From Calditrichota bacterium (GTDB lineage: Bacteria > Electryoneota > B3-LCP), in assembly GCA_020051775.1 (NCBI GenBank), contig JAGVQJ010000061.1, positions 1 through 44,701 of the forward strand: a DNA stretch of 44,701 nucleotides, in the 5' to 3' direction. Positions 19,948 to 40,307 of this stretch are shown piece by piece. A program made the position numbers and the translations under genes. The notes under the pieces are model-generated. The model saw only the letters and a program-made list of their open reading frames with translations. It ran no database searches and had not been told where the DNA came from. How positions within the stretch are numbered: the first letter of the stretch is position 1; every line of letters starts with the position of its first letter.

Positions 19948-22900
19948 CTACAAATACCTCATCTCCTCCACCGTCAACGTCACCGCGCCGTGATCCTCCT
20001 CCACCAATCCCCGCAGGATGAAAGGCCGGGTGCGGCTGAGCATGTGGCAGTAGCGGTCGTAAACCCTGGGGAAGAAGACCGCCTCGATCAAGCCGTCCAG
20101 ATCTTCGAAGGTGAGAAATTCCATCAGCTCCTTATTCTTCGTTGATACGATCTTTCCGGTCAGCAGCCAACCCACCATCCGAATGCGCTTGCCGATGTGC
20201 CGGTCCAGATCGCGCGAGGAGACCAGACCCAAACCCCGCAGCCGGTCAGCGTACAGTTCCAGCGGGTGGCGGCTGATGAGAAAACCAAACGACTCCTGCT
20301 CCTGCCGCAGCCGGGTCTTCTCGTCGTAGGGAGGCATGGCGGGCAATCCGGCGGGGCGGGTGTCGAAAAGGGGAAGGGTCTCACCGCCCCGCCCGTTTTG
20401 TCCGGGAATAAATTCCCGAACCGCCACCATTCTATCCGTCAGCTGACGGATGTTTTTTTCGTCCTTTTGGACTGAAGGTCTGTAGCCCGGGAATTCATTC
20501 CCGGGCGGGCGGGCAGCGGCAGCAAGCTGCTGCTCTACCGCGCCTGTCGAAAACCGCTTCGCTTCAATTCCGGCAGGAACGGAAATTTCCTCGCTCCGCC
20601 CACCGCTAAAGCGATGGGCTACATCTATTGAAACCCCCATAAACGGGGCTGTGTTGAGGTTGGAGACAACCCCGATTACGGATTGACGAGTCCCCTTCCA
20701 GGGGGCTTTGTTCGTAGATGTAGCCCCGTCCTTGAGGGCGGGGCGGTGGGGGGCATGTTTCTGGTGTGTTGTGTTTACACAGCGAAGCATGTCAGCAGTC
20801 TCACAGCATGCTTCGTCCAGCAAAAGGCGCTGGCCAGAAGCATGCCACCCCACAGTTGTCTGCATCGCCGATATAACGGATGAAACGGATCGAACGGATT
20901 TGTTTCTCTGCGTTCTCTGTGTCTCTGTGGTGAAATTTTCCTCCACCGTCATCTTCCACATCATCCCTGCGCGCCGCTCCCGTCCTTCCAGCGCATCGAA
21001 TGCTCCCGCCTTGATCAGCGCCTTCGTGTCGGACGGATCCAGCCCGGCACGGCGCAGAAAATCATCGAAAGTCGCGAACGGTCCCCCTCCGTTCCGCTCC
21101 GCCATCACCCTCTCCATCGCCTTCGTTGTCAACCCCTTGATCTGCATGAAGCCCACGCGGATAGCCCTATCCTTTCCCCACCAGCGCACGCGGCTGCTGT
21201 TGATATCCGGCGGCAGGATAGCCAAGCCCATGCGCCGCGACTCCGACATATAGGCGAAGGTGGAATAGAAGCCGCCCTGGTTGGAGATCACCGCCGCCAT
21301 GAACTCGGCAGGATAGTGAGCCCGCAGCCAGGCGCTTTTGAAACTGACCAGTGCGAACGAGGCCGAGTGCGGTTTGCAGAAGGAGTACCCGGCAAACGAC
21401 AGGATCATCTCCCAGACGGCGCGGATGGCGTCCTGCTTGACGCTGCGATCCAAAGCTCCCTGCACGAACTTGCGCTGCAAGTCCATCAGCCGTTTCTGCT
21501 TGTGCTTCTTGGAGAGGATCTTGCGCAGTTCGTCGGCTTCGATGGAGTCGAATCCCGCCAGCGCCATAGCCACTTTCGAGACGTCCTCCTGGTAGATCAT
21601 GATGCCGTAGGTTTCTCCCAGGATGTCGTTTAGCAGCGGGTGCAGAGGTTCGTAGGGCTTGCCCTTCAGGCGTTCCAGATACAGGTGGATGTATGGATTG
21701 GCCGCCGGGCGGATAATGGAACTGTGCAGCACTGCGTGCTCGAAATCGCCCACGCGCGCCTTCTTTTCCAGCAGACGGGTGGCAGGTGATTCAATGTAGA
21801 AGACGCCCATGGTGTCGCCTTTGGCGATCAGCTCCTGCGTAGCCTCGTCGTCAATGGGATTCCAACGAGCAAACTCGATGCGCGGGCCGCCGTTGATTTC
21901 GATCATCATCAGCGCGTCGCGGATGACGCCCAGTGAACGATTGCCCAGCAGGTCAATCTTCACCAAGCCGGCATCTTCGGCTTGATCTTTTTCCCAATGG
22001 ATGATATTTACCGGCTTGACGGCCCGCTGCACCGGAACGTGATCCCACACCGGCCCCGGCGTGATGATGACGCCGCCGCAATGTACCGACAAGTGGCGAG
22101 GAATATCGTGCAGGCGTTGCGCCACCTGCAGGATCTCTGGCCAGGGAGGATCGAAGTCGTGATAGCGCAGCGAGGGATTCTTCATGACGTCGTCCACATG
22201 ATCATCCCAATAACCGGACATCTTCTTGGTGACGGCGGTGATTTCGGTTTCGGGCAGACCGTAAACTTTGGCCACTTCGTGGATGGCGGCGCGCGGCTGG
22301 AAGGTGACATGATTGCTGATCATGGCGGTATGATCGTTGCCGTATTTACGGAAGACGTAGTCCAGCACGGCGTCGCGCTCGTCCCAGGCGAAGTCCACGT
22401 CAATGTCGGGCGGATCTTTGCGGCCGGGATTTAAGAACCGCTCGAAGTAGAGTTTGTGGCGCAACGGTTCCACGTGAGTGATTTCCAGGCAGTAGGAAAC
22501 GATGCTGGCCGCCGCCGACCCTCGCCCGCAGGTGCGCGGCGACTGTTTGACGATATCCTGCACCACCAGGAAGATCGAGGCGAAATTCATGCGGCGAATC
22601 ATGTCTAACTCGTACTCCAGGCGTTCACGCACCGCCGGAGTAATCTCGCCGTAACGTTTGGCCGCTCCTTTGTATGCCTCTTCGCGCAGGCGCTCGCAGG
22701 TCTGGTCCGGCGTCATCCCCTCGAACTGCGGAACGACCATGGGAAACTGCGGCGTCCAGTCGCACTGCTCCGCGATGACTTGCGTGTTCAGAATGGCTTC
22801 CGGGCAGAAGAAGAAGTATTCCTCCATCGCTTTAGGTGTCTTCAGCCAGGCGCTTTCCGGCTCGACCTCGGATTCGAGGAGGCGCGACAGCGTGGTGTTC

Positions 22901-23928
22901 AGATCAATGGCGCGCAATAGACAATGGAGAGAATAGTCCTCCTTAGCCAGGAAATGCACGCGGTTGGTGGCGACGGGAGGGATGCCCATCGCGCGGGCGT
23001 TTTTTAGCAGCTCATGGACGCCGGGGCCGGGAGTCAATTCGGCGTAGAGGTGTTCCACCTTGCCGCTGAGGGCGCGGAGCAGCGGCAGGTCGGAGGTGAG
23101 GATAACCAAACCCTCGCCGTGTGAGATGAGTTCGTTGGTGAGATCAAAGCTCCCGTCGGTTTCCCCGGGAATGAATTCCCGGGCTATCTTGTTGCAGTCC
23201 ACTGAAGTGGACGCTCGCTCCGCAGTGTCATTCCAGCGGTCGGCACGACCGCCCGTGCCGGGCGAAAGCTGGAATCCTGGAAATACTGTAGTCGCGGCCT
23301 GCGGTCTCGGTGTTTGCGACCGTGTGACCTGACACTCCCCGGCGTCTTGATCCTCGCCTTGCCCCTGAAAGATTCCCCTCTGCCCTCCCTTTTTAAGGAG
23401 GGGTAAATAATCTCCTGCGCTCGAGAGCCCCCCCTTATTAAGGGGGGTTGGGGGGATTTTTTGAAGGGATATCTGCGACAAATGATATTCCGATAATATC
23501 CGGCAGAGGTTGGCGTAGCCGGTTTGGGAATGGACGAGAAGGGTGGCGCGTGACCCCAATGCCCACCGCTGAAGCGATGGGCTACCTCTATTAGAAGCCC
23601 CGTAAACGGGGCTGTCGGAGTCGAAAGCGATCCCGACTATGGTGTCGGGAGCCCCCTTCCAGGGGGCTTTTCTCATAGCCGTAGCCCCGTCCTTGAGGGC
23701 GGGGCGTGGGGGTAATGTGGTACCCGCCCTCACCTCCGCTCCCACGATAGGCCTTAGTCCCTGCTCCTTCGCCGCTTCCAGGAACAGCAACAGCCCGTAG
23801 AGGCCGTTGGTGTCGGTCAGAGCGACGCTGGTCATACCCGCCGCCTTGACCGCCGCGCAGAGCGCTTCCGGCGACGCCGTCCCCCGCAGGAGGGAGTAGT
23901 GGGAGTGGGTGTTTAAGTGGATGAACAC
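19948..23928 (-). CDS. dnaE2: Error-prone DNA polymerase III alpha subunit, DnaE2/ImuC type, with in-frame repeat insertions
   Basis: The protein is about 1326 residues from a GTG at 23928, giving FIHLNTHSHYSLLRGTAS, the usual start. The frame is open to a TTG at 24051 through a repeat. The PHP domain has HSH at residues 8-10. The polymerase core has PDIDVDF at 507-513, holding two catalytic Asp, and LVKIDLLG with the third. Helix-hairpin-helix and OB domains follow, and it ends soon after the OB fold, as in DnaE2. Three insertions of repeat-derived sequence (full-frame residues about 113-164, 196-297 and 1040-1222) add some 330 residues; without them the length matches DnaE2. TLPLF just after the third could bind the clamp. 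It is probably induced by DNA damage with imuB. Confidence 0.9.
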   Translation of the reverse strand: MFIHLNTHSHYSLLRGTASPEALCAAVKAAGMTSVALTDTNGLYGLLLFLEAAKEQGLRPIVGAEVRAGTTLPPRPALKDGATAMRKAPWKGAPDTIVGIAFDSDSPVYGASNRGSPSLQRWALGSRATLLVHSQTGYANLCRILSEYHLSQISLQKIPPTPLNKGGLSSAGDYLPLLKKGGQRGIFQGQGEDQDAGECQVTRSQTPRPQAATTVFPGFQLSPGTGGRADRWNDTAERASTSVDCNKIAREFIPGETDGSFDLTNELISHGEGLVILTSDLPLLRALSGKVEHLYAELTPGPGVHELLKNARAMGIPPVATNRVHFLAKEDYSLHCLLRAIDLNTTLSRLLESEVEPESAWLKTPKAMEEYFFFCPEAILNTQVIAEQCDWTPQFPMVVPQFEGMTPDQTCERLREEAYKGAAKRYGEITPAVRERLEYELDMIRRMNFASIFLVVQDIVKQSPRTCGRGSAAASIVSYCLEITHVEPLRHKLYFERFLNPGRKDPPDIDVDFAWDERDAVLDYVFRKYGNDHTAMISNHVTFQPRAAIHEVAKVYGLPETEITAVTKKMSGYWDDHVDDVMKNPSLRYHDFDPPWPEILQVAQRLHDIPRHLSVHCGGVIITPGPVWDHVPVQRAVKPVNIIHWEKDQAEDAGLVKIDLLGNRSLGVIRDALMMIEINGGPRIEFARWNPIDDEATQELIAKGDTMGVFYIESPATRLLEKKARVGDFEHAVLHSSIIRPAANPYIHLYLERLKGKPYEPLHPLLNDILGETYGIMIYQEDVSKVAMALAGFDSIEADELRKILSKKHKQKRLMDLQRKFVQGALDRSVKQDAIRAVWEMILSFAGYSFCKPHSASFALVSFKSAWLRAHYPAEFMAAVISNQGGFYSTFAYMSESRRMGLAILPPDINSSRVRWWGKDRAIRVGFMQIKGLTTKAMERVMAERNGGGPFATFDDFLRRAGLDPSDTKALIKAGAFDALEGRERRAGMMWKMTVEENFTTETQRTQRNKSVRSVSSVISAMQTTVGWHASGQRLLLDEACCETADMLRCVNTTHQKHAPHRPALKDGATSTNKAPWKGTRQSVIGVVSNLNTAPFMGVSIDVAHRFSGGRSEEISVPAGIEAKRFSTGAVEQQLAAAARPPGNEFPGYRPSVQKDEKNIRQLTDRMVAVREFIPGQNGRGGETLPLFDTRPAGLPAMPPYDEKTRLRQEQESFGFLISRHPLELYADRLRGLGLVSSRDLDRHIGKRIRMVGWLLTGKIVSTKNKELMEFLTFEDLDGLIEAVFFPRVYDRYCHMLSRTRPFILRGLVEEDHGAVTLTVEEMRYL
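20400..20506 (-). repeat. Composite palindromic element inside dnaE2, copy C
   Basis: About 107 bases built from three palindromes: TCCGGGAAT...ATTCCCGA, the perfect ATCCGTCAGCTGACGGAT (20434-20451), and CCCGGGAATTCATTCCCGGG with the CGTCC/GGACT arms between. A second copy with the same order lies at 23943-24049. Here it is translated as GNEFPGYRPSVQKDEKNIRQ. Confidence 0.8.
20599..20750 (-). repeat. 150-base multi-hairpin element inside dnaE2, copy 2
   Basis: It contains several hairpins in a row: CCCACCGCT/AGCGATGGG, CCCCATAAACGGGG, CCCCTTCCAGGGGG and GCCCCGTCCTTGAGGGCGGGGC. It matches 23561-23711 in order, length and much of the sequence. It is read in frame as HRPALKDGATSTNKAPWKGT in the DnaE2 protein. 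Confidence 0.8.
20781..20845. repeat. GCATGCTTC inverted repeat inside dnaE2
   Basis: Arms AGCATGCTTCGTCCAGC and GCTGGCCAGAAGCATGC (20806-20845) form a long near-perfect hairpin. A further AGCGAAGCATG arm lies at 20781. It is part of the third insertion cluster of the dnaE2 reading frame. Confidence 0.6.
20870..20935 (-). repeat. ACGGAT tandem repeat and CACAGAGAC-type repeat inside dnaE2
   Basis: 20870-20902 has successive ACGGATGAAACGGATCGAAC units. 20903-20935 is the complement of CACAGAGACACAGAGAACGC, a sequence known to recur between genes in many bacterial assemblies. In frame it gives FTTETQRTQRNKSV, which has no counterpart in DnaE proteins. Confidence 0.7.
23164..23281. repeat. Cluster of palindromes inside the PHP region of dnaE2
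   Basis: Successive inverted repeats: CCCGGGAATGAATTCCCGGG (23164-23183), GTCCACTGAAGTGGAC (near 23197-23212), and GTCATTCCAGC...GCTGGAATCCTGG (about 23226-23281). The last resembles the element before rpmJ. All are translated without a stop. Confidence 0.7.
23374..23465. repeat. Inverted pair of CCCCTTNTTAAGGGG elements inside dnaE2
   Basis: Two copies face each other: 23374-23406 (CCCTCCCTTTTTAAGGAGGG) and 23427-23465 (CCCCCCTTATTAAGGGGGG). The second is translated as KIPPTPLNKGG and the first as PLLKKGGQRGIF. This kind of repeat is found between genes in many phyla. Confidence 0.75.
23561..23711 (-). repeat. 150-base multi-hairpin element inside dnaE2, copy 1
   Basis: Same element as 20599-20750, in the same orientation and reading frame (PPRPALKDGATAMRKAPWKG in protein). 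It lies between GAEVRAGT and the RATLLVHSQTGYANLC strand of the PHP domain, replacing or lengthening a surface loop. Confidence 0.8.
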
Positions 23929-23942
23929 GGATCTTCGCCTTG

Positions 23943-24049
23943 CCCGGAAATGAATTTCTAAGGCTACCTTGATTCTATCCGTCAGCTGACGGATGTTTTT
24001 TACGTCCTTTTGGACTGAAACTTGGTAGTCCGGGAATTCATTCCCGGAC
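23943..24049 (-). repeat. Composite palindromic element in the dnaE2 leader, copy N
   Basis: Same order of palindromes as 20400-20506: a decayed CCGGAAATGAATTTC, then ATCCGTCAGCTGACGGAT, CGTCC/GGACT, and CCGGGAATTCATTCCCGG. It sits between the promoter and the GTG start of dnaE2 and is open in the dnaE2 frame. Confidence 0.8.
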
Positions 24050-24073
24050 AATAACTGTTCGTATGTACACTAT

Positions 24074-24217: not shown

Positions 24218-26044
24218 CTATTTCAGCAACACCATTTTACCGGAGGCGGTGTTCTGTCCGGCAGTGAGACGGTAGAGGTAAACACCAGAGGGGAGGTTGC
24301 TTCCATCGAAGGTCACATCATGCGCACCGGCCTCCTGCCAACCACCAACCAGCGTTGTCACCAACCTCCCGGCGGTATCCCAAATCGCCAACCTAATGTG
24401 GCTTGGAGCTTGAAGCTTGAAGCTGATAGCTGTCGTGGGATTGAAGGGATTGGGGGAAACCACCAGTGCCGGACTCGAAGGGATAAAAGCGGTCTGTGAC
24501 CACTCACCGTCAAACGATTCGCCGGTATTTGCCCAATCGCCGATCAGAGGGCCGCTGCCGGTAGTCAGCTTGGTATAAATCAGAGTATCCGAACTCCAGA
24601 TAGTATTGGGGTAAATCCCGGCATAGCCTATGTATTTATACTCGCCGGGTGGAGCGCTTCCAGGCACATTCTGATGTCGCAACCACCCTGTAGTGCCGGG
24701 CGGGAGACTTACAGTAAAGGGACCCAGGATTGGACCGGTGATGGTGCTGTCTGGCAGAATCTGTTTCGTCCAGAGGGTCACATTGGTGTTGATTGAATCT
24801 TCATTTGAGACAAAGGCGTAAAAGCTGAAACTGCCGCCGCTGGCGGGGATGAGGATGGGGAGGGTGAAGGGGATGAGGTCTAAAGAAATGTTTGCAGGAA
24901 AAAAGTCTGGTTCGGTTTTGATGAGATAAACCTGATTGTCAGCGCCAAAGGAATCCGTGTATCCGGCAACAATATATCCACAGTCCTGGGTTTGTCGTAC
25001 GTCATACCCATAATCGTGACCAGCACCTCCGAAAGTGCTCTGCCACACAAGATTGCCGGCCGTATCTATTTTAAGGAGATAAACATCCGGTATTGCAGTT
25101 ATCGAGGCTTCAGCATAACCCGCAACTATATATCCGCCATCCAGGGTTTGTTGTACACTGCGGCCGAAGTCATTGTTGATCCCACCATAACTGTTCTGCC
25201 AAATGGGATGACCCATGGAATCGGTTTTGATGACGTATACATCATAATGATTCTCTCCCGTATCCCCTGCAATGATATACCCTCCATCAGTAGTTTGCTG
25301 CACACTGAAACCATATTCGTTAAAAACTGAGCCGAAAGTGCGCTGCCAGAGGAGATTTCCATGATAATCCGTTTTAATCATTAAGATGTCGGAACCACCA
25401 GCGCCGGGAACCATGATGAATCCGGTAATGATGTACCCACCATCTAATGTTTGACACACGTACCGTCCCACCTCTTCACTATTATCACCACCGTAACCCT
25501 GTTGCCAAACCAAAGCTCCGACAGCATTAGTTTTCACCAGGTAGGCATCCATACTCGGCCCGAACATTCCTGTTTCGCCGGTGACAATATAACCGCCGTC
25601 CGTCGTTTGTTGCACGCAATATCCACATTCGAATGACGGCGTACCGCCAAAATATGTCTGCCAAATCTGATTTCCAAAGCCATCGGTTTTGACCAGGTAC
25701 AACTCGCCCGAAGGCATAAACGAATGGGTTTTTCCGGCGATGATGTAGCCGCCATCGCTGGTTTGTTGTACGCTATAACCCCAGTCTGTAAGATCCCCGC
25801 CGTAGGTTTGTTGCCAGACCTGATTGCCATGAACATCGGTCTTGATCAGATAAACCTGGTAATAACTACTGTATTCAATTGTCGTACCGGCAATGATATA
25901 CCCTCCATCTGCGGTTTGTTGCACACAATAGCCATAATCGTTGGAACGCGCTCCGTATGTTCTCGTCCAGAGCGTATCCGGCGGTTGGGCGGCAGCGAGG
26001 AGGGGGAGTAAAGCAGTGAGTATAAAAGCGATGTAGCTCTTCAT
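24218..26044 (-). CDS. Secreted seven-repeat beta-propeller protein with type IX sorting domain (paralog 1)
   Basis: From the ATG at 26044 (after GGAGGTT) the protein has 608 residues, with a signal peptide (MKSYIAFILTALLPLLAAAQ). Seven repeats of about 50 residues follow, each with a core like VQQTTDGGYIIAGDT, then YLIKTD..GN..WQ..YGG, to about residue 370. This is the pattern of predicted seven-bladed propellers. An Ig-like middle part with PASGGSFSFYAFVSNED leads to a C-terminal sorting domain (NPFNPTTAISFKLQ, then NLPSGVYLYRL and SGKMVLLK). It is likely exported by type IX secretion and surface-attached or released. Function unknown. It is in tandem with, and probably cotranscribed after, its paralog. 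Confidence 0.85.
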   Translation of the reverse strand: MKSYIAFILTALLPLLAAAQPPDTLWTRTYGARSNDYGYCVQQTADGGYIIAGTTIEYSSYYQVYLIKTDVHGNQVWQQTYGGDLTDWGYSVQQTSDGGYIIAGKTHSFMPSGELYLVKTDGFGNQIWQTYFGGTPSFECGYCVQQTTDGGYIVTGETGMFGPSMDAYLVKTNAVGALVWQQGYGGDNSEEVGRYVCQTLDGGYIITGFIMVPGAGGSDILMIKTDYHGNLLWQRTFGSVFNEYGFSVQQTTDGGYIIAGDTGENHYDVYVIKTDSMGHPIWQNSYGGINNDFGRSVQQTLDGGYIVAGYAEASITAIPDVYLLKIDTAGNLVWQSTFGGAGHDYGYDVRQTQDCGYIVAGYTDSFGADNQVYLIKTEPDFFPANISLDLIPFTLPILIPASGGSFSFYAFVSNEDSINTNVTLWTKQILPDSTITGPILGPFTVSLPPGTTGWLRHQNVPGSAPPGEYKYIGYAGIYPNTIWSSDTLIYTKLTTGSGPLIGDWANTGESFDGEWSQTAFIPSSPALVVSPNPFNPTTAISFKLQAPSHIRLAIWDTAGRLVTTLVGGWQEAGAHDVTFDGSNLPSGVYLYRLTAGQNTASGKMVLLK

Positions 26045-26078
26045 AATAACCTCCATTGATCCCATTTTGATATTTCCT

Positions 26079-27899
26079 CTATTTCAGCAGCACCATCTTT
26101 CCCGAGGCGGTGTTCTGTCCGGTAGCGAGACGGTAGAGGTAAACACCAGAGGGGAGGTTGCTTCCATCGAAGGTCACCTCATGCGCCCCCGCCTCCCGCC
26201 AGCCATCCACCAGGGTGGTCACAAGCCTCCCGGCAGTATCCCAAATCGCCAACCTGATGTGGCTTGGAGCTTGAAGCTTGAAGCTGATGGCTGTCGTGGG
26301 ATTGAAGGGATTGGGATGGGAAGGATGAAGTATAATAGAGGAAGGATAAATCTCTTCGGTCGAAGTATTTTCCCCAAAGAAGGGATCGCCTGTATTGGCC
26401 CAATCACCAATCAGTGGGCCGTCACCGGTGGTTAATTTGGTATAGGTAATGGTATCTGTACTCCAAACGGCATTAGGGTATACGCCCGCGTAGCCGATAT
26501 ACTTATACTCCCCGGGAGGGGCACTTCCGGGCACGTTTTGATTGCGGAACCAGCATCTGGTGCCTGTCGTGAGGTTCACTGTATACGGCCCCAGGATGGC
26601 GGGCGTCAGAGTGCCATTCGGCAGAATCTGTCGAGTCCATAGAGCCACATTGGCGTTGGCGGTGTCCTCATTGGTAGCGAAAGCATAGAAACTGAAACTG
26701 CCACCGCTGGCGGGGATTTGGATGGGGAGGATAAAAGGAACTACGCTCAACGTTATTGTGGAAGGATTAAATAGATCCGGTTCTGTTTTTATCAGGTACA
26801 CTTGGTTACCGTTGCCAAATGAAGCTGTTCTACCTGTAATAACAAATCCATTTTCCGTAGTTTGTTGAACGCAATAGCCTACATCACTACTCCAACCACC
26901 GATTGTTTCGTGCCAAATTTCATTACCATTTTCATCAATTTTAATAAGAATTACATCATAATTGCCTGCGCCGAAAGAATTCGTAAATCCAGCAGCGATA
27001 TAACCGCCATCTTCAGTCTGCCGAATGCTGCGGCCTTCGTCCCAGTCGCCATAGTTAAATATGCGTTCCCACATCAAGTTGCCTAGATCATCAGTTTTGA
27101 TTAAATAAATGTCAGTGTAACTGTATTTTCCTGCTATAATATATCCTCCATCCGTTGTTTGCTGAACACTGTATCCCATATCATGTCCGGTTCCTCCATA
27201 AGTGTTTTGCCAAATTAAATTTCCGAGACTGTCAATCTTAATTAGATAAACATCATAATCTCCTGCCCCGTAGGACATGGTTGCTCCGGCAATTATATAG
27301 CCGCCATCCGCAGTTTGTTGGCCATAATGACCATAATCCTCATTAGTGCCTCCGTAAGTGTGAGCCCATGTCTGAATGCCGGATGCGTCCGTTTTAATTA
27401 ACCAGACGTCTCCCAAACCACCAACAAGACAACGTGCGAACAAAATATACCCACCGTTGTTGGTCTGCTGAGCACAATATCCTTGATCTGTAATACTAGG
27501 CCATCCGAAAGTCTGCTGCCAGATCAAGTTACCGAGACTATCAGTTTTTATCAGCAGTGCGTCACCCGCGCCACCATTAGCATCCCCGGCGAGTATATAC
27601 CCGCCATCAGAAGTTTGTTGAACCGATTTGGCATAATCTCGTAGGTTTCCTCCAAAGGTCTGCTGCCAGATCTGGTTTCCATTAACATCTGTTTTGACGA
27701 GATAGACATCACCATCCCCATAGTATGATGAATATCCCATGCCGGCGACGATATATCCCCCATCAGCGGTCTGCTGTACACAGTAACCGATATCATCAAC
27801 ATTACCTCCAAATGTCCTCGTCCATAGCGTATCTGGCGCTTGGGCGGTGGCAGCGAACGCTAGCAACAGCGTGATGAACAGAGCAATTGACGTCTTCAT
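26079..27899 (-). CDS. Secreted seven-repeat beta-propeller protein with type IX sorting domain (paralog 2)
   Basis: The 606-residue protein starts at the ATG at 27899, after AGGAGA. The frame is open to 27956, but the extra 19 codons overlap the leader. It has a signal peptide ending AFAATAQ, seven DGGYI-type repeats (variants NNGGYIL and ENGFVIT), the same Ig-like linker and a sorting domain nearly identical to its neighbour's. The propeller halves have diverged much more than the last 70 residues. It has its own promoter at 27960-27988 and lies 34 bases upstream of paralog 1, so both are probably one operon. Confidence 0.85.
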   Translation of the reverse strand: MKTSIALFITLLLAFAATAQAPDTLWTRTFGGNVDDIGYCVQQTADGGYIVAGMGYSSYYGDGDVYLVKTDVNGNQIWQQTFGGNLRDYAKSVQQTSDGGYILAGDANGGAGDALLIKTDSLGNLIWQQTFGWPSITDQGYCAQQTNNGGYILFARCLVGGLGDVWLIKTDASGIQTWAHTYGGTNEDYGHYGQQTADGGYIIAGATMSYGAGDYDVYLIKIDSLGNLIWQNTYGGTGHDMGYSVQQTTDGGYIIAGKYSYTDIYLIKTDDLGNLMWERIFNYGDWDEGRSIRQTEDGGYIAAGFTNSFGAGNYDVILIKIDENGNEIWHETIGGWSSDVGYCVQQTTENGFVITGRTASFGNGNQVYLIKTEPDLFNPSTITLSVVPFILPIQIPASGGSFSFYAFATNEDTANANVALWTRQILPNGTLTPAILGPYTVNLTTGTRCWFRNQNVPGSAPPGEYKYIGYAGVYPNAVWSTDTITYTKLTTGDGPLIGDWANTGDPFFGENTSTEEIYPSSIILHPSHPNPFNPTTAISFKLQAPSHIRLAIWDTAGRLVTTLVDGWREAGAHEVTFDGSNLPSGVYLYRLATGQNTASGKMVLLK

Positions 27900-27959
27900 T
27901 TCCGGGTCTCCTGCGGTTGTTAAGGATTTAGTAGGATGGAGTATTGTCAAAATCACTCT

Positions 27960-30139: not shown

Positions 30140-31297
30140 TCACTTCGCAAAGCTTACCACCTTGATGCCAAAACGTTCCCGCACCTGATCCAGCGACTTC
30201 GTCAGGCGGATTTCCCGGCTGTCCGCCGGACTCTCAAACAACCCCAGTTGCCATCCCGCCTCCACCTGAAAATCGCGGAAGTCAACTTCCAAGGCGCGTA
30301 CCCGGATGCGGCGGGTTAGGATCTGCAAGAGCAGACCTTCAGCTTCGGTGGACCAGGTCGAAAGTTGGCTGCTCCCCTTGCGCAGCAGTCGCTCGCCGCG
30401 AGCGGTCTTGAAGTCGGAATAGAGCAGATTCAACTGCAGCCGGCGGGCTGATCGGCTGCTCTGGCGCAGCTCGGTCAGCGCCTCCTCGATCAGATGGAAC
30501 AGCTCTCGTTTCAGGACGGCCAGATCGTTGCTGTCTTCGGCCAGCTCAAAGCGCCGCAACAGGTGCGGCACAGCAGAGGGTGGAGTCACAGGACTGTAAT
30601 CCTGCCCCAAGGCCTGCCGGTGCAGCAGCAAGCCTCGCCGCCCAAAAGCCGCTTCCAGGTGTGCCGATTCCATCCCCGCCACCTGCTGTACGATCTGGAA
30701 GTTTAATTCCAGCAATTGCCGGTAAAGCGGACGATCCACGCTCGGTAGCACGTGGACTTTTAATGGCGCCAGAAAGGACTGTTCATCGCCTTCGGGCACA
30801 CGGATGAATTCGCGCGGCGGCGATTGCTTCCCCGCCACCAGACTGACCAATTTGTTACCTCCCAAACCAGCGGACGGATCCAGCTTGAGCTGCTGGCTAA
30901 TCTCGCGTTCGGCGCGCCTGGCGATATCACCGGCGCCGCCGAAGAGCTTCTGGCTGCCGGTAACGTCCAGGTAAGCGCCCCCCAATCGGAAGGGTTCCAC
31001 CAATGGAGTGTACTGGGACAAGAGGCGTAAAATAGCCGCTTCAGCGCGAGCATACAGGGGTGGATTGGGGGGGAGGATGCCTAAGTCCGGGCAGAGCTTG
31101 CGGGCTTCGTTCACCCTCATGCCCGGCCGGATGCCGGCTTTGCGTGCTTCGGCGGAGACCTCTTGCACCAATGCCCGAACCGAATCGGGTGGAGCGATCA
31201 CCAGAGGGCGTTCCCGCAGCTTCGGGCGGCAGGCGCGTTCCACCGCCACTCCGAAGGTGGGGATGCGCAGGAAGAATATGGAGCGGTTTGTCAGCAC
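30140..31297 (-). CDS. imuB: ImuB-like inactive Y-family polymerase
   Basis: About 385 residues from a GTG at 31297, which would be close to the transcription start and so nearly leaderless. The frame is open to 31360 through the promoter. The fold is that of Y-family polymerases, but the active-site acids are gone: FLRIPTF replaces VDMDAFF, and RLGGAYLD (around residues 104-111) replaces SIDEAYLD. This loss is characteristic of ImuB, which scaffolds DnaE2 on the sliding clamp. QLGLF at about 350-354 fits the clamp-binding motif. Its promoter resembles that of dnaE2. No ImuA is seen. The name rests on these features, not on a database search. Confidence 0.82.
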   Translation of the reverse strand: MLTNRSIFFLRIPTFGVAVERACRPKLRERPLVIAPPDSVRALVQEVSAEARKAGIRPGMRVNEARKLCPDLGILPPNPPLYARAEAAILRLLSQYTPLVEPFRLGGAYLDVTGSQKLFGGAGDIARRAEREISQQLKLDPSAGLGGNKLVSLVAGKQSPPREFIRVPEGDEQSFLAPLKVHVLPSVDRPLYRQLLELNFQIVQQVAGMESAHLEAAFGRRGLLLHRQALGQDYSPVTPPSAVPHLLRRFELAEDSNDLAVLKRELFHLIEEALTELRQSSRSARRLQLNLLYSDFKTARGERLLRKGSSQLSTWSTEAEGLLLQILTRRIRVRALEVDFRDFQVEAGWQLGLFESPADSREIRLTKSLDQVRERFGIKVVSFAK

Positions 31298-31302
31298 GTT
31301 AT

Positions 31303-31332
31303 AATATAAGTATACAAACGTGCACTTGTCAA
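31303..31332 (-). promoter_or_regulatory. imuB promoter with probable repressor site
   Basis: TTGACA (31327-31332) and TATATT (31303-31308, 18-base spacer) with AGTGCACGTTTGTATACT between. This stretch is an imperfect palindrome (AGTGCAC-N4-GTATACT). Its first half is shared with the dnaE2 promoter. Confidence 0.75.
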
Positions 31333-31368
31333 GGGATTTCCAGACTTTCGACATATTCAATATTTCTG

Positions 31369-35551: not shown

Positions 35552-36565
35552 ATGTTGAAAACTCTACGATTTTTTGCTATCGGTGTGTTCGCTATTGGTC
35601 TTCTTATCGGTCTATATCTATGGCCGACGGGAGATGTCGTCAGCGAACCCGGAAATTCACCACTGTACACCGCATCCTTGAATAGCACGACCAACCAACT
35701 CGGTGGTTCGGGCACTCCGACTGATCCGATCAGGAACAGCGACGGCAAGGGTGGCGGAGAAGGTAATTTCATCACGTGTGAAACTACCTGCGGTCCCACT
35801 TGCAATCAAACCACATGCGGTCAGACTTGTGTGGCCACATGTGCTGCAACTTGTGCTAATACTTGCGGGCAGACCACCTGCAATTCGACTTGCGTAGCGA
35901 CCTGCGAAGCAACTTGCGCCAACACCTGCTCCCAGCCTACGTGCGAATCCACCTGCGTCATCACCTGCTCCTTCACCTGTGAAGAGCCTATTACGCTGGT
36001 TGATTTCACCGCAGCCCCGCAGGGTGAGAATATCGCCCTGAATTGGACGACCGGCTCAGAAGTTGACAACTACTGCTTCCGTCTGTGGCGTTCCACCAAT
36101 CCTGATGGCGAGTTCACCGATGTCTCGGGTGAAATCCCCGCTCAGGCTCAAGGACCGGGAATGACCGCTTACAGCTACGTGGATCACAACGTAGTTCCTG
36201 GGACAACCTACTTCTACAAAATCCAGGACATTTCACTGTACGGCTACCAGACGATGCATCAGGCTGTAGCCAGCGCCACTGTGGCCGCCGGCTATGTACT
36301 GGCGCAGAATTATCCCAATCCTTTCAATCCGGAAACCGTCATCCGCTTCGTTCTGCCTTCGAGCGCCCAGACCCGTCTGGCCGTCTACGACATGAGTGGT
36401 CGTTTGGTTCGGACGCTGGTGAACGGAACCGTTGACGCCGGTCCCCACCAAGTTTCCTGGAATGCCACGGATGAAGCTGGCCAGATTCTGCCCAGCGGGA
36501 TGTATATTTATCGTCTCTCCGCCGGTGCAATCAAAACTAGTGGTAAGATGGTATTTGTCAAGTAA
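35552..36565 (+). CDS. Secreted protein with regular Thr-Cys repeat and type IX sorting domain
   Basis: 337 residues after a strong GGGAGG site. A signal anchor or signal peptide (residues 1-26, FFAIGVFAIGLLIGLYLW) is followed by a spacer. Residues 76-143 hold 17 cysteines, each preceded by Thr and spaced four residues apart (xxTC), with three five-residue steps. A 21-residue higher repeat is visible (QTTC..TCVATC..TCANTC). Then come a fibronectin-III-like domain (about 145-250) and a sorting domain (NYPNPFNPETVIRF to SGKMVFVK). The varied Thr and Cys codons suggest selection on the protein. The function is unknown; it could be a disulfide-stacked or modified repeat displayed outside the cell. 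Confidence 0.85.
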   Translation: MLKTLRFFAIGVFAIGLLIGLYLWPTGDVVSEPGNSPLYTASLNSTTNQLGGSGTPTDPIRNSDGKGGGEGNFITCETTCGPTCNQTTCGQTCVATCAATCANTCGQTTCNSTCVATCEATCANTCSQPTCESTCVITCSFTCEEPITLVDFTAAPQGENIALNWTTGSEVDNYCFRLWRSTNPDGEFTDVSGEIPAQAQGPGMTAYSYVDHNVVPGTTYFYKIQDISLYGYQTMHQAVASATVAAGYVLAQNYPNPFNPETVIRFVLPSSAQTRLAVYDMSGRLVRTLVNGTVDAGPHQVSWNATDEAGQILPSGMYIYRLSAGAIKTSGKMVFVK

Positions 36566-36665: not shown

Positions 36666-39600
36666 ATGGGAATAACTTCTGAGAAATACTGGATTTCAAC
36701 TTTGATTTTTCCAGTGCTGTCTCTCTTAATGACCCTCCCTGCGCTGATCCCCACCAGATCTGCGATCTGTGCTGCTCCGGCAGGAGTGACCTTGATTTCC
36801 TGCGATCAAAGCGGCGCGGTAATTGAAGTCAATCTCCCCGAACTCAAGTTCTCCACATTGCAGCGCCAGGATCGTAGCTTCACAGATCTCGACGCACCGG
36901 GGTGGCCTCGCCTGAGTGAGGAAGGCAAACCGGCTTTACCGTCTAATGCGGTTTTATTGGCGATTCCTCCCGGCGCTAAAGCATCCCTGGCGGTTGAAGC
37001 CATTGACGTCTATACCCTGTCAGCTCCCGATCCGTTGCCCGCTCCAACTGTCAGTGTGAATCTCCCCGGCACTCAAGTAGATAACCGGTTCCTTCCGGAT
37101 CCAGCGGTTTATACCGCTTCTACCTCCTGGCCGCCATCATGGGCGTCCTTGAGCGAGCCGGTGCAAATGCGGACCTATTGGGCGATCCCGGTTCGCCTCA
37201 CTCCCGTGCGCGCCACGCCGAGTCAAGGCCAAGTCCAGGTGGCTAAGAAGCTGCGGTTGCGAATCACCTTCCAGGGCGGACGCACCGGCCACTTCATCAC
37301 CGATCCTTATGGCGAACCATTGGCCCGAGCCACTCTGCTCAATTTCCAACAAGCTCGTTCCTGGCAGGAAAAATCGGTTTCCTCTCTGAAAACTCTCGAC
37401 TCTCAATCCTATGGCAAATATAAAATTTACGTCAATAACGACGGCTTGCGCATCATCACCCACGACGACTTGGTCGCCGCCGGTATCTCTCCGGATACTC
37501 TGGCAACCTTAAATCCAGCTACGCTTAAACTACAAGTCAAAGCGCGACAGGGACAAATCGATACGTTGATCCAGGTTCCGGCTTGGGTGGAGGGAGAGTG
37601 GGATGGCCGCTTCGATCCCCAGGACTACATTTTATTTTTCGGCAATTTCGCGCGCGGCCAATATACCTATGAAAATCCCTTCGTTCGCGCCAACACCTAC
37701 TGGCTGGATTGGGGTGGATCGCCAGGAATGCGCTTGCAGACTAAAACCGCAACTCCAAGCACCGCGGTGCCGGTTGCCAAATTTCGAACGCACACCCGCG
37801 TCGAGTACGATACCCTTTACGAAAAGTTCGGATTTGCGAACGAAATCGGCGCTGACACCATTGACCATTGGTTGTGGCACCGTTTGGATTCACAGTTCAA
37901 TCCCAACCTGACCTTCCTCCAATGGATGCCCGGTCACCTGGTGCTGCCAGGGTACAATTATTCACTGACAGTATCTGTGCGCGGCTACACCTTGGATTCG
38001 CTGATCTATCCCGATCACCCCTTCTCAGTTACCTGGAATGACCATCTGGCTATTGACGATACGATGGATCAGCAGAATCCTCGTATCGTCACCGCAGTAA
38101 TCCCCCCAGAATGGGTTTCTGCGCCTGAGAATGCTCCCGCGGAAATCACGGTGCACGCACCGCCGGTCCCTGGCATGATCTTGGGCAATTCCTTCTATTT
38201 GGATTGGATTCGCGTAGACTACTGGCGCAATTTATCTGTAATCGGCGACACCTTGTTGTTCCAGAAACCGCAGGATATGGCGCCCTTGGGTGAATTCCGT
38301 TATCAATTGACAGGACTTCAAGAGCAGGATACTTCGGACATCGAAGTATGGAATCTGACGAGAAATTTACGTTTGCGGGGATTCACGCTGAATGGGGGTA
38401 CTCTCACATTCCAGGATTCGTCATTAACGGACAGCACGGTGTACTACCTGGCGGCTCGAAACCGCTGGTTGCCACCCGACAGCATCGTTCGTGACGAACC
38501 CAGTGACTGGAGGAGCGTCGCTCATCATTACGACTATCTCATCATCACTTACGAGGATTTCTATGCGGCTATGAGTCCCTTGGTGGATCACTACGCCTCC
38601 CAGGGGATGGACGTGGCTTTAATTAAACTCGGAGACGTCTACGATGAATTCAATTACGGCCTGAAAAGTCCGCAGGCCATTTATGAATTCATACAATATG
38701 CCTTCTTTAATTATCCCGGAGGTCCTCCGGCGTATTGTCTGTTAGTCGGCGACGCTTCCTGGGATTACAAAAATTATGAGTATTTACCATATATAGACTA
38801 TTGCCCGACTTTCCATTTCTGGACGAGGAAATGGGGTGAGACCGCCTCCGACAACTTTTTCGTGGCCGTCTCGGGCAATGACGTAGTCCCTGATCTTTAT
38901 GTGGGACGAATGCCGGTTAATACTGTTGATGAACTTGATTTGATGATACAGAAGAGCCTGACCTACGCCCAGGCTCCCCAGGGGAATTGGCGCAGCACCG
39001 TTATTTTCTCCAACGGCGCCATTGATTCCGCCAGCGCTGTGGAATTCGACGGTTACGTGGATATGTGGGTGGAGAATTATTTTCCGCCCTGGTATGAGCC
39101 AACCCTGCTTTATAAAAACCCCTCGGCGGGCCACGAGCAATACCAAAGCACCAATGAAGAGCTGATACGCGCCATCAATCAAGGCGCCATGTGCGTGAAT
39201 TATCAGGGTCATGCCGGCAATCAGATCTGGGAGACCATGACGTTGGAAGGTATCGCTTCGCTCACCAATGGTATCAAACTTCCCTTCGTAATGGGGTATT
39301 CCTGCTTTACGGGAATATTCTCCAATACGCGCGGCTTTGGTGAAGCATTCATACTCCAGCCTGGCGGCGGGGCAGTGGCGTATTTCTCCAACGGCGCGGT
39401 AGGTTATAGCGGCACCAACGCCATCATGGACAGTTGTATGCTCCGACAACTTTTCATGCCTCCGGATACCACTCAACCCGTCACCTTCGGACTGGCCATG
39501 ACACAGGCCAAGGTCAGTTACTTTGCACATCTATTCTATCAGCAGTCGGTAGTGGAGACCTTTGTGCTGTTGGGTGATCCCGCCTGCCAGTCGGTTTACC

Positions 39601-40307
39601 AGACGCCCAATCCCGCCGATACCCTGGACGATGAGGCGCCGCAGATCCACATTGCCTTCAACGGTGAAGGCGGCCCCGGATTTCGAGACGGCGATTTCGT
39701 CAATAATCCGGTGCAATTCACTTGCATGGTATCCGACTGTACAACCATAGATACCACCTCGCTGTACCTGAAACTAACGCATCTGGCGGATGCCGAAGGA
39801 TCCCCGCTGACAGATTCACTTTCCTGGAGTTGGTGGCCAAATACGCCGTATCCGCCGGGATTCAGTTCTACCTCGCCCGACACCCAGCATTTCAATATGA
39901 CTTACACCGATAGCCTTGCCGAAGGCGAATGGCAGTTCATTGTCCGCGTCTCTGATTTCTTCAACAACGGGCCAGCCTCGGATACCGTGGTCTTCAACCT
40001 CAGCCAGGGAACCCTTGCATTGGAAAATGCCTTGAACTGGCCGAATCCTTTTCAGGATCGCACCAGTTTCGCTTTCGACTTGCTCTTTTCCCATGATGCG
40101 GAAGTGACCATTAAGATCTTCACGGTGGCTGGACGGTTGGTGCGCATTCTGCAAGATCAAGCGCAACCGGGATACAACCTGGTGGAGTGGGATGGCCGCG
40201 ACAGTCGCGGCGACCCGCTCTCCAATGGAGTGTATCTGTACAAAATCATTGCGCACACCGCCGACCAGCAAGCAGAAAAGATCGGTAAACTGGCCAAGTT
40301 GAAATAG
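36666..40307 (+). CDS. C25 (gingipain-type) cysteine peptidase, possible PorU-like sortase
   Basis: 1213 residues with a signal peptide (residues 1-37), a long N-terminal propeptide-like beta-rich region (to about 600), a C25 catalytic domain (about 615-980) and a C-terminal sorting domain (NWPNPFQDRTSFAF to SNGVYLYKI). The catalytic His849 (NYQGHAGNQIWE) and Cys880 (MGYSCFTGIF) are both present, so it should be active. Size and layout fit PorU, the sortase of type IX secretion, but secreted C25 proteases share it. It may process the sorting-domain proteins of this window. Its promoter is not visible; read-through of the terminator ahead of it is possible. Confidence 0.85.
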   Translation: MGITSEKYWISTLIFPVLSLLMTLPALIPTRSAICAAPAGVTLISCDQSGAVIEVNLPELKFSTLQRQDRSFTDLDAPGWPRLSEEGKPALPSNAVLLAIPPGAKASLAVEAIDVYTLSAPDPLPAPTVSVNLPGTQVDNRFLPDPAVYTASTSWPPSWASLSEPVQMRTYWAIPVRLTPVRATPSQGQVQVAKKLRLRITFQGGRTGHFITDPYGEPLARATLLNFQQARSWQEKSVSSLKTLDSQSYGKYKIYVNNDGLRIITHDDLVAAGISPDTLATLNPATLKLQVKARQGQIDTLIQVPAWVEGEWDGRFDPQDYILFFGNFARGQYTYENPFVRANTYWLDWGGSPGMRLQTKTATPSTAVPVAKFRTHTRVEYDTLYEKFGFANEIGADTIDHWLWHRLDSQFNPNLTFLQWMPGHLVLPGYNYSLTVSVRGYTLDSLIYPDHPFSVTWNDHLAIDDTMDQQNPRIVTAVIPPEWVSAPENAPAEITVHAPPVPGMILGNSFYLDWIRVDYWRNLSVIGDTLLFQKPQDMAPLGEFRYQLTGLQEQDTSDIEVWNLTRNLRLRGFTLNGGTLTFQDSSLTDSTVYYLAARNRWLPPDSIVRDEPSDWRSVAHHYDYLIITYEDFYAAMSPLVDHYASQGMDVALIKLGDVYDEFNYGLKSPQAIYEFIQYAFFNYPGGPPAYCLLVGDASWDYKNYEYLPYIDYCPTFHFWTRKWGETASDNFFVAVSGNDVVPDLYVGRMPVNTVDELDLMIQKSLTYAQAPQGNWRSTVIFSNGAIDSASAVEFDGYVDMWVENYFPPWYEPTLLYKNPSAGHEQYQSTNEELIRAINQGAMCVNYQGHAGNQIWETMTLEGIASLTNGIKLPFVMGYSCFTGIFSNTRGFGEAFILQPGGGAVAYFSNGAVGYSGTNAIMDSCMLRQLFMPPDTTQPVTFGLAMTQAKVSYFAHLFYQQSVVETFVLLGDPACQSVYQTPNPADTLDDEAPQIHIAFNGEGGPGFRDGDFVNNPVQFTCMVSDCTTIDTTSLYLKLTHLADAEGSPLTDSLSWSWWPNTPYPPGFSSTSPDTQHFNMTYTDSLAEGEWQFIVRVSDFFNNGPASDTVVFNLSQGTLALENALNWPNPFQDRTSFAFDLLFSHDAEVTIKIFTVAGRLVRILQDQAQPGYNLVEWDGRDSRGDPLSNGVYLYKIIAHTADQQAEKIGKLAKLK

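Follow-up and report, generated by a model that had tools for sequence, protein, structure and literature searches.

A DnaE2-type polymerase with three insert blocks

The window analyzed here, a stretch of 44,701 nt (positions 1 to 44,701 of contig JAGVQJ010000061.1, assembly GCA_020051775.1, Calditrichota bacterium; Electryoneota, B3-LCP in GTDB), contains on its minus strand an open reading frame (ORF) of 1367 codons without a stop (19948–24051). As indicated by Pfam and NCBIfam scans, the product belongs to the C-family of DNA polymerases and has PHP, palm, finger, helix-hairpin-helix, and OB regions. The same genome encodes a separate, ordinary dnaE1 (1161 aa), so that the ORF is identified as dnaE2, an accessory DnaE2-type polymerase gene. 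Features expected of this class are present, namely, a second C-family polymerase in the genome, intact catalytic motifs (PDIDVDF, KIDLLG, and HSASFALVSF), and a C-terminus that does not extend far beyond the OB fold. About a quarter of this conserved polymerase consists of inserts composed largely of palindromic repeats that are dispersed in the intergenic DNA of the same genome.

An alignment with 89 other DnaE2-type sequences, the majority of which come from named genomes and the remainder from close and distant relatives, delineates three lineage-specific blocks, approximately residues 113–167, 193–299, and 1045–1224 (339 residues and 1,017 nt in total), that are absent from homologs without inserts. 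Block A (55 residues; 23551–23715, minus strand) occupies a PHP-domain loop after VGAEV, block B (107 residues; 23155–23475, minus strand) a second PHP loop after CRIL-x3-HL, and block C (177 residues in two alignment segments; 20380–20940, minus strand) the linker between the helix-hairpin-helix and OB regions. The preliminary description of the window had already proposed three in-frame blocks of about 330 residues at nearly identical coordinates, located in loops and at a domain junction of an otherwise intact DnaE; the alignment and the structure models discussed below agree with this placement.

The same description had the gene extend over the entire 19948–24051 interval. The frame is indeed open throughout, up to TTG 24051, but the start is probably GTG 23928, because the homologs begin with MFIHL or MFVHL, that is, M-F-I/V-H-L, which gives a gene at 19948–23928 and a full-length protein of about 1326 residues. 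With this start, the palindrome at 23972–24051 (minus strand), although open in frame, would lie upstream of the gene and probably be 5′ untranslated.

In what follows, the present genome is denoted G000; G002 (isolate SURF_9) and G004 (a metagenome-assembled genome (MAG), LacPavin) represent two other genera of the family, and G031 and G033 a second family.

Dispersed palindromic repeats make up the blocks

The DNA of the blocks is not single-copy. In the G000 draft (196 contigs), about 50 and about 45 partial matches to block DNA were detected, and in the sampled part of the genome (1.79 Mb, or 44%, with 1,145 ORFs of at least 150 aa, partly chosen around repeat-bearing contigs), other copies, mostly intergenic, cover 72–86% of each block. 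Block A has 29 intergenic matches and none in ORFs, and block C has 66 intergenic matches and 8 in ORFs.

The tag most commonly found beside intergenic palindromes in the sample is GTAG, and this tetranucleotide is also located directly 5′ of the palindrome in the tagged elements of the blocks, the arrangement that characterizes GTAG-tagged repetitive extragenic palindromes (REPs). There are six GTAG-tagged REPs in blocks A and C and one more upstream, with a 9 bp stem and a 2 nt loop; the stem-loops of the blocks fit the size range given for REPs (stem of 5–13 bp, loop of 2–20 nt; PMC3733652). Besides the GTAG REPs (GTAGCCCCGTCCTTGAGGGCGGGG, GTAGCCCATCGCTTCAGCGGTGGGC, GTAGCCCGGGAATTCATTCCCGGG, and others), the recognizable units are CCCTTnnTAAGGG palindromes, a four-hairpin composite, and a CACAGAG/ATCCGT repeat.

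Block A encompasses an inverted pair of GTAG REPs along with additional hairpins; the tagged elements are GTAGCCCCGTCCTTGAGGGCGGGG (23681–23705, plus strand) and GTAGCCCATCGCTTCAGCGGTGGGC (23561–23585, minus strand). Block B consists of CCCTTNNTAAGGG-type elements and REP palindromes. Two of its palindromes are CCCCCCTTAATAAGGGGGG (23429–23447), with up to 19 other matches in the sampled genome, and CCCGGGAATGAATTCCCGGG (23164–23183), with up to 23 other matches over 23160–23219. Positions 23164–23198 (plus strand) also yield a weak, below-gathering match to the Acido-Lenti-1 RNA (RF01687, E 0.011), and 23562–23589 yields a weaker one; this RNA family may overlap REP palindromes.

Block C comprises the CACAGAG/ATCCGT repeat, a second copy of the block A REP pair, a further REP, and the composite. 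Its GTAG REPs are GTAGCCCCGTCCTTGAGGGCGGGG (20720–20744, plus strand), GTAGCCCATCGCTTTAGCGGTGGGC (20598–20622, minus strand), GTAGAGCAGCAGCTTGCTGCCGCT (20515–20538, minus strand), and GTAGCCCGGGAATTCATTCCCGGGC (20482–20506, plus strand). The composite (20400–20506, minus strand) resembles REPINs, that is, paired REPs, and reads GNEFPGY...REFIPG; it has end palindromes of the form GGGAATxxATTCCC and inner hairpins GTCC..GGAC and ATCCGTCAG/CTGACGGAT. Copies with this architecture are present between the genes of G002 and G004 and in the DnaE2 of G002, and the palindrome upstream of the gene is another copy (92% identity over 76 bp). The CACAGAGACACAGAG...ATCCGTTCATCCGT repeat (20856–20939), for which up to 12 further matches exist in the sampled genome, lacks the GTAG tag. 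Block A and the 20598–20758 segment of block C are 80% identical over 160 bp; no other genomic match is as long, and repeat material has thus spread also within the gene.

The preliminary description attributed the blocks to many unrelated repeat families. Many of the elements are instead of one kind, GTAG REPs, but these are indeed mixed with others: in blocks B and C, no GTAG-tagged stem was found in the CCCTTnnTAAGGG and CACAGAG stretches, which are dispersed repeats of another kind. Two CGTC-stem matches are present in blocks B and C, with the main elements being GTAG-tagged.

An open frame and a constrained core

Every block is free of stops in only one of its six frames, that of dnaE2; the other frames contain 1–9 stops each. 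For random intergenic DNA of the respective block lengths, the chance of being open in a given frame is about 0.16, 0.08, and 0.06; the joint chance, including frame retention at all three sites, is about 3 in 100,000, a rough estimate given that short genes lacking annotation are part of the intergenic pool.

The polymerase core evolves under purifying selection (dN/dS, the ratio of nonsynonymous to synonymous substitution rates, is about 0.25 in comparisons with G002 and G004). Its distance to eight outgroups is 0.424, compared with 0.431 and 0.433 for homologs with little or no insert, and the tree branches concur that the core of the insert-bearing dnaE2 is not accelerated. These observations bear on the possibility that dnaE2 is a decaying pseudogene gathering intergenic repeats, as could be suspected from the heavy repeat load and from the presence of two C-family polymerase genes, of which dnaE2 is probably dispensable. 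With the entire 4.1-kb frame open, no other open frame in the blocks, the motifs intact, and the core constrained, this explanation is already largely refuted, and we regard it as very unlikely.

The inserts differ from the core in composition. The GC content at the three codon positions is flat in the inserts (0.61/0.54/0.59) and structured in the core (0.61/0.41/0.78). In AlphaFold models built with homolog alignments, most of the PHP domain has a predicted local distance difference test (pLDDT) score above 90 and matches DnaE structures, and the helix-hairpin-helix and OB regions are modeled confidently, whereas most of blocks A, B, and C falls below 50. The inserts are thus predicted to form disordered loops outside the catalytic core.

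The blocks could, in principle, be removed by an intron, an intein, or translational bypass, such that a protein of normal size is made; their lengths, clean multiples of three, and loop positions are compatible with such removal, and the RNA hairpins are strong. However, splicing or bypass would require no stop-free frame, conserved ends are absent from the blocks, and searches detected neither an intron family (Rfam) nor an intein family (Pfam and NCBIfam). We consider removal most improbable.

Shared sites and element turnover in relatives

The DnaE2 proteins of G002 and G004 contain inserts at the same sites A, B, and C, with largely different sequences. These elements, too, are dispersed in their own genomes, the best copies being 97–100% identical. 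At site A of G002, there is a 114-bp element whose best outside copies are 96–97% identical; at site B of G004, a 77-bp element accompanies one of 110 bp, a 90-bp stretch of which is 100% identical to a sequence 2.4 kb away. Compared with a view to shared ancestry, the site B inserts of G000 and G002 are similarly arranged but divergent in DNA sequence. The alignment reveals no conservation of insert residues between genera, that is, the relatives with insertions at the same sites carry different elements. Given this turnover and the non-coding-like codon-position composition of the inserts, a gain of spacer sequence for the host, raised as a possibility in the preliminary description, is not supported. 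Among 20 other copies of the G002 and G004 elements, none resides inside a recognizable gene; one copy of the G002 element (L243), considered as evidence of a second colonized gene, was rejected because it is located before a signal-peptide-like start.

In two close relatives, G001 and G003, sites B and C hold little or nothing, and therefore the sites have been either filled more than once or emptied. Outside this family, in-frame dispersed repeats are present in the DnaE2 of G031 and G033, and the DnaE2 of a cultured isolate, Geomonas propionica Red259 (L113:5502–5633), includes a REPIN-like element of 108 bp that is inserted in frame and has very many copies in the genome. In all, dispersed repeats were found in the DnaE2 of six genomes tested, which span several lineages and include one isolate. 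An acidobacterial DnaE2 (L092:6585–7865) has three insert-like segments (SSQFPVLSSQ... and TGNW-type), two of which were tested and are not dispersed in their own genome; accordingly, this protein is not counted. The dnaE1 ORFs in the genomes of the family stay at about 1160 aa.

Given that G000 is a repeat-rich draft, false joins at repeats during metagenome assembly could conceivably mimic insertions within a gene. Such an artefact is hardly credible here, because the core continues collinearly and in frame from one side of every block to the other, and comparable insertions occur in the independent MAGs G002, G004, G031, and G033 as well as in the G. propionica isolate.

dnaE2 compared with the rest of the genome

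In the G000 sample, 13-mers that recur between genes account for 3.4% of the intergenic sequence vs 0.15% of the ORFs. The dnaE2 gene contains 236 bp of such intergenic-repeat sequence, the next of the 1,145 ORFs 41 bp, and codon-shuffled ORFs at most 26 bp. Thus, dnaE2 stands out six-fold in its load of embedded intergenic repeats, yet it is not unique: the notion that it is the sole colonized gene was rejected because ORFs with weaker hits also hold in-frame palindromes. Aspartate-semialdehyde dehydrogenase (Asd; L162:880–1950, contig C65) has an in-frame GTAG REP that adds about 20 residues directly before the catalytic NPNCST motif, leucyl-tRNA synthetase (LeuS; L152:6499–9132) an in-frame palindrome that adds about 14 residues, and LarB (L224:17964–18782), a dehydratase-like protein (L270:1066–2697), and a type IX sorting domain (L264:8615–9127) short in-frame palindromes. 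These single in-frame palindromes across genes are a genome-wide background similar to that of the Rickettsia palindromic elements (RPEs). In the same sample, no embedded repeats were detected in uvrA, mutL, dnaE1, pol IV, or the ImuB-like gene.

The outlier status of dnaE2 raises the question of whether the inserts are adaptive, that is, whether REP insertion alters the activity, partner binding, or expression of a mutagenic polymerase and is preferentially retained for that reason. Apart from the six-fold excess, this possibility draws on the recurrence of dispersed repeats in the DnaE2 of six genomes from several lineages and on the survey of Di Nocera, De Gregorio, and Rocco (2013; PMC3733652), in which REPs inside genes were reported preferentially in those for replication and repair, DnaE2 among them, some species having no other tagged genes, and in which a role in the emergence of mutators was speculatively suggested. 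The lack of inter-genus residue conservation in the inserts, their predicted disorder outside the catalytic core, the nearly empty B and C sites of G001 and G003, and the clean state of other repair genes in the sample all argue otherwise, and adaptation appears unlikely.

The ImuB-like gene (30140–31360, minus strand) lies on the same strand, about 6 kb upstream of dnaE2, and encodes a Y-family polymerase-like protein that has lost the catalytic motifs (SIFFLRIPTFGVAVER, LGGAYLDV) and is a probable mutasome partner. Other genes near dnaE2 (24218–27956, 35552–36565, and 36666–40307) encode cargo proteins of type IX secretion, which have C-terminal sorting domains, and a PorU-like sortase.

A scenario for the origin of the inserts

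We favor, as the likely explanation, invasion of a functional accessory DnaE2 at three permissive places, two PHP loops and the linker preceding the OB region, by REPs and REPINs of the type mobilized by REP-associated tyrosine transposases (RAYTs), with retention of the in-frame inserts. All seven genomes searched encode RAYT-type Y1 transposases (Y1_Tnp). GTAG palindromes flank examples of these genes in G000 and G002, and in G004 and G042 examples are bordered by pieces of the same elements that the DnaE2 of the respective genome contains. Enzymes of this family, TnpA-REP, recognize and cleave single-stranded REPs via the GTAG and the palindrome (PMC8266576). Under this scenario, RAYT (TnpA-REP) transposases of the HUH type would move small, non-autonomous GTAG REPs and REPIN-like pairs into permissive loops, and purifying selection on the polymerase would purge insertions that are out of frame or contain stops, such that in-frame ones persist and are translated as disordered loops. 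Once in a loop, a neutral insert could take up further elements, giving rise to mosaic blocks, and blocks A and C have, in addition, exchanged or copied the 160-bp piece.

Several considerations weigh against this scenario. The production of the insert peptides is something that we infer. The elements of the blocks match the palindromes flanking RAYT genes of G000 only partly (about 73–78% for block A), and the CCCTTnnTAAGGG and CACAGAG parts have no GTAG tag, so that other movers must participate. Repeated gains account for the recurrence of the sites no better than does an ancestral insertion with later turnover and loss. Finally, tolerance alone does not obviously account for the extreme position of dnaE2, with uvrA, mutL, pol IV, and the imuB-like gene being free of repeats. 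A bolder possibility is that DnaE2-type mutagenic polymerases in several phyla are preferred, positively retained targets of REPs and REPINs, such that the cell's mutagenesis machinery would be reshaped time and again by mobile hairpins at these three loops; we consider this unlikely.

Comparison with known systems

REPs are by name extragenic, yet here they contribute to a quarter of a polymerase without a visible loss of constraint. In 2013, repair polymerases were tentatively suggested to be special targets, and a family with shared insertion sites, along with the culturable G. propionica, makes tolerance, targeting, and selection testable against one another.

The preliminary description took the RPEs as the precedent. 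Like the elements described here, RPEs are short palindromic repeats inserted in frame into ORFs that probably encode functional proteins (PMC3733652); in G000, single in-frame palindromes were seen in the genes for Asd, LeuS, LarB, and others. However, RPE-4 and RPE-6 are CGTC-tagged and have no known transposase, whereas the elements described here are mainly GTAG-tagged, belong to a distant lineage, and are concentrated in one gene. A closer parallel is provided by the GTAG/CGTC REPs in DnaE2 and other repair genes (PMC3733652), which are likewise tagged, mostly intergenic, and found in frame in coding regions, where loops and linkers were suggested as their locations. The inverted pairs of GTAG REPs and the RAYT-type Y1 genes with GTAG palindrome flanks in the same genomes also resemble the RAYT-mobilized REPINs and REPtrons; REPINs, however, are normally extragenic, whereas the present elements lie in frame within a conserved gene and would be mobile by analogy.

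Because REPs in DnaE2 were reported in 2013 (PMC3733652), the case described here extends a known phenomenon. The largest intragenic REP clusters in that survey span 43–82 aa, compared with 55, 107, and 177 aa here, where a single gene holds several kinds of elements at three sites. In that survey, REPs within one gene category were mostly located at differing sites, the exception being recB of two Xanthomonas, whereas here three genera share three sites occupied by different elements. What is new is the scale, the recurrence of the sites with turnover of the elements, and the quantification of the bias within one genome.
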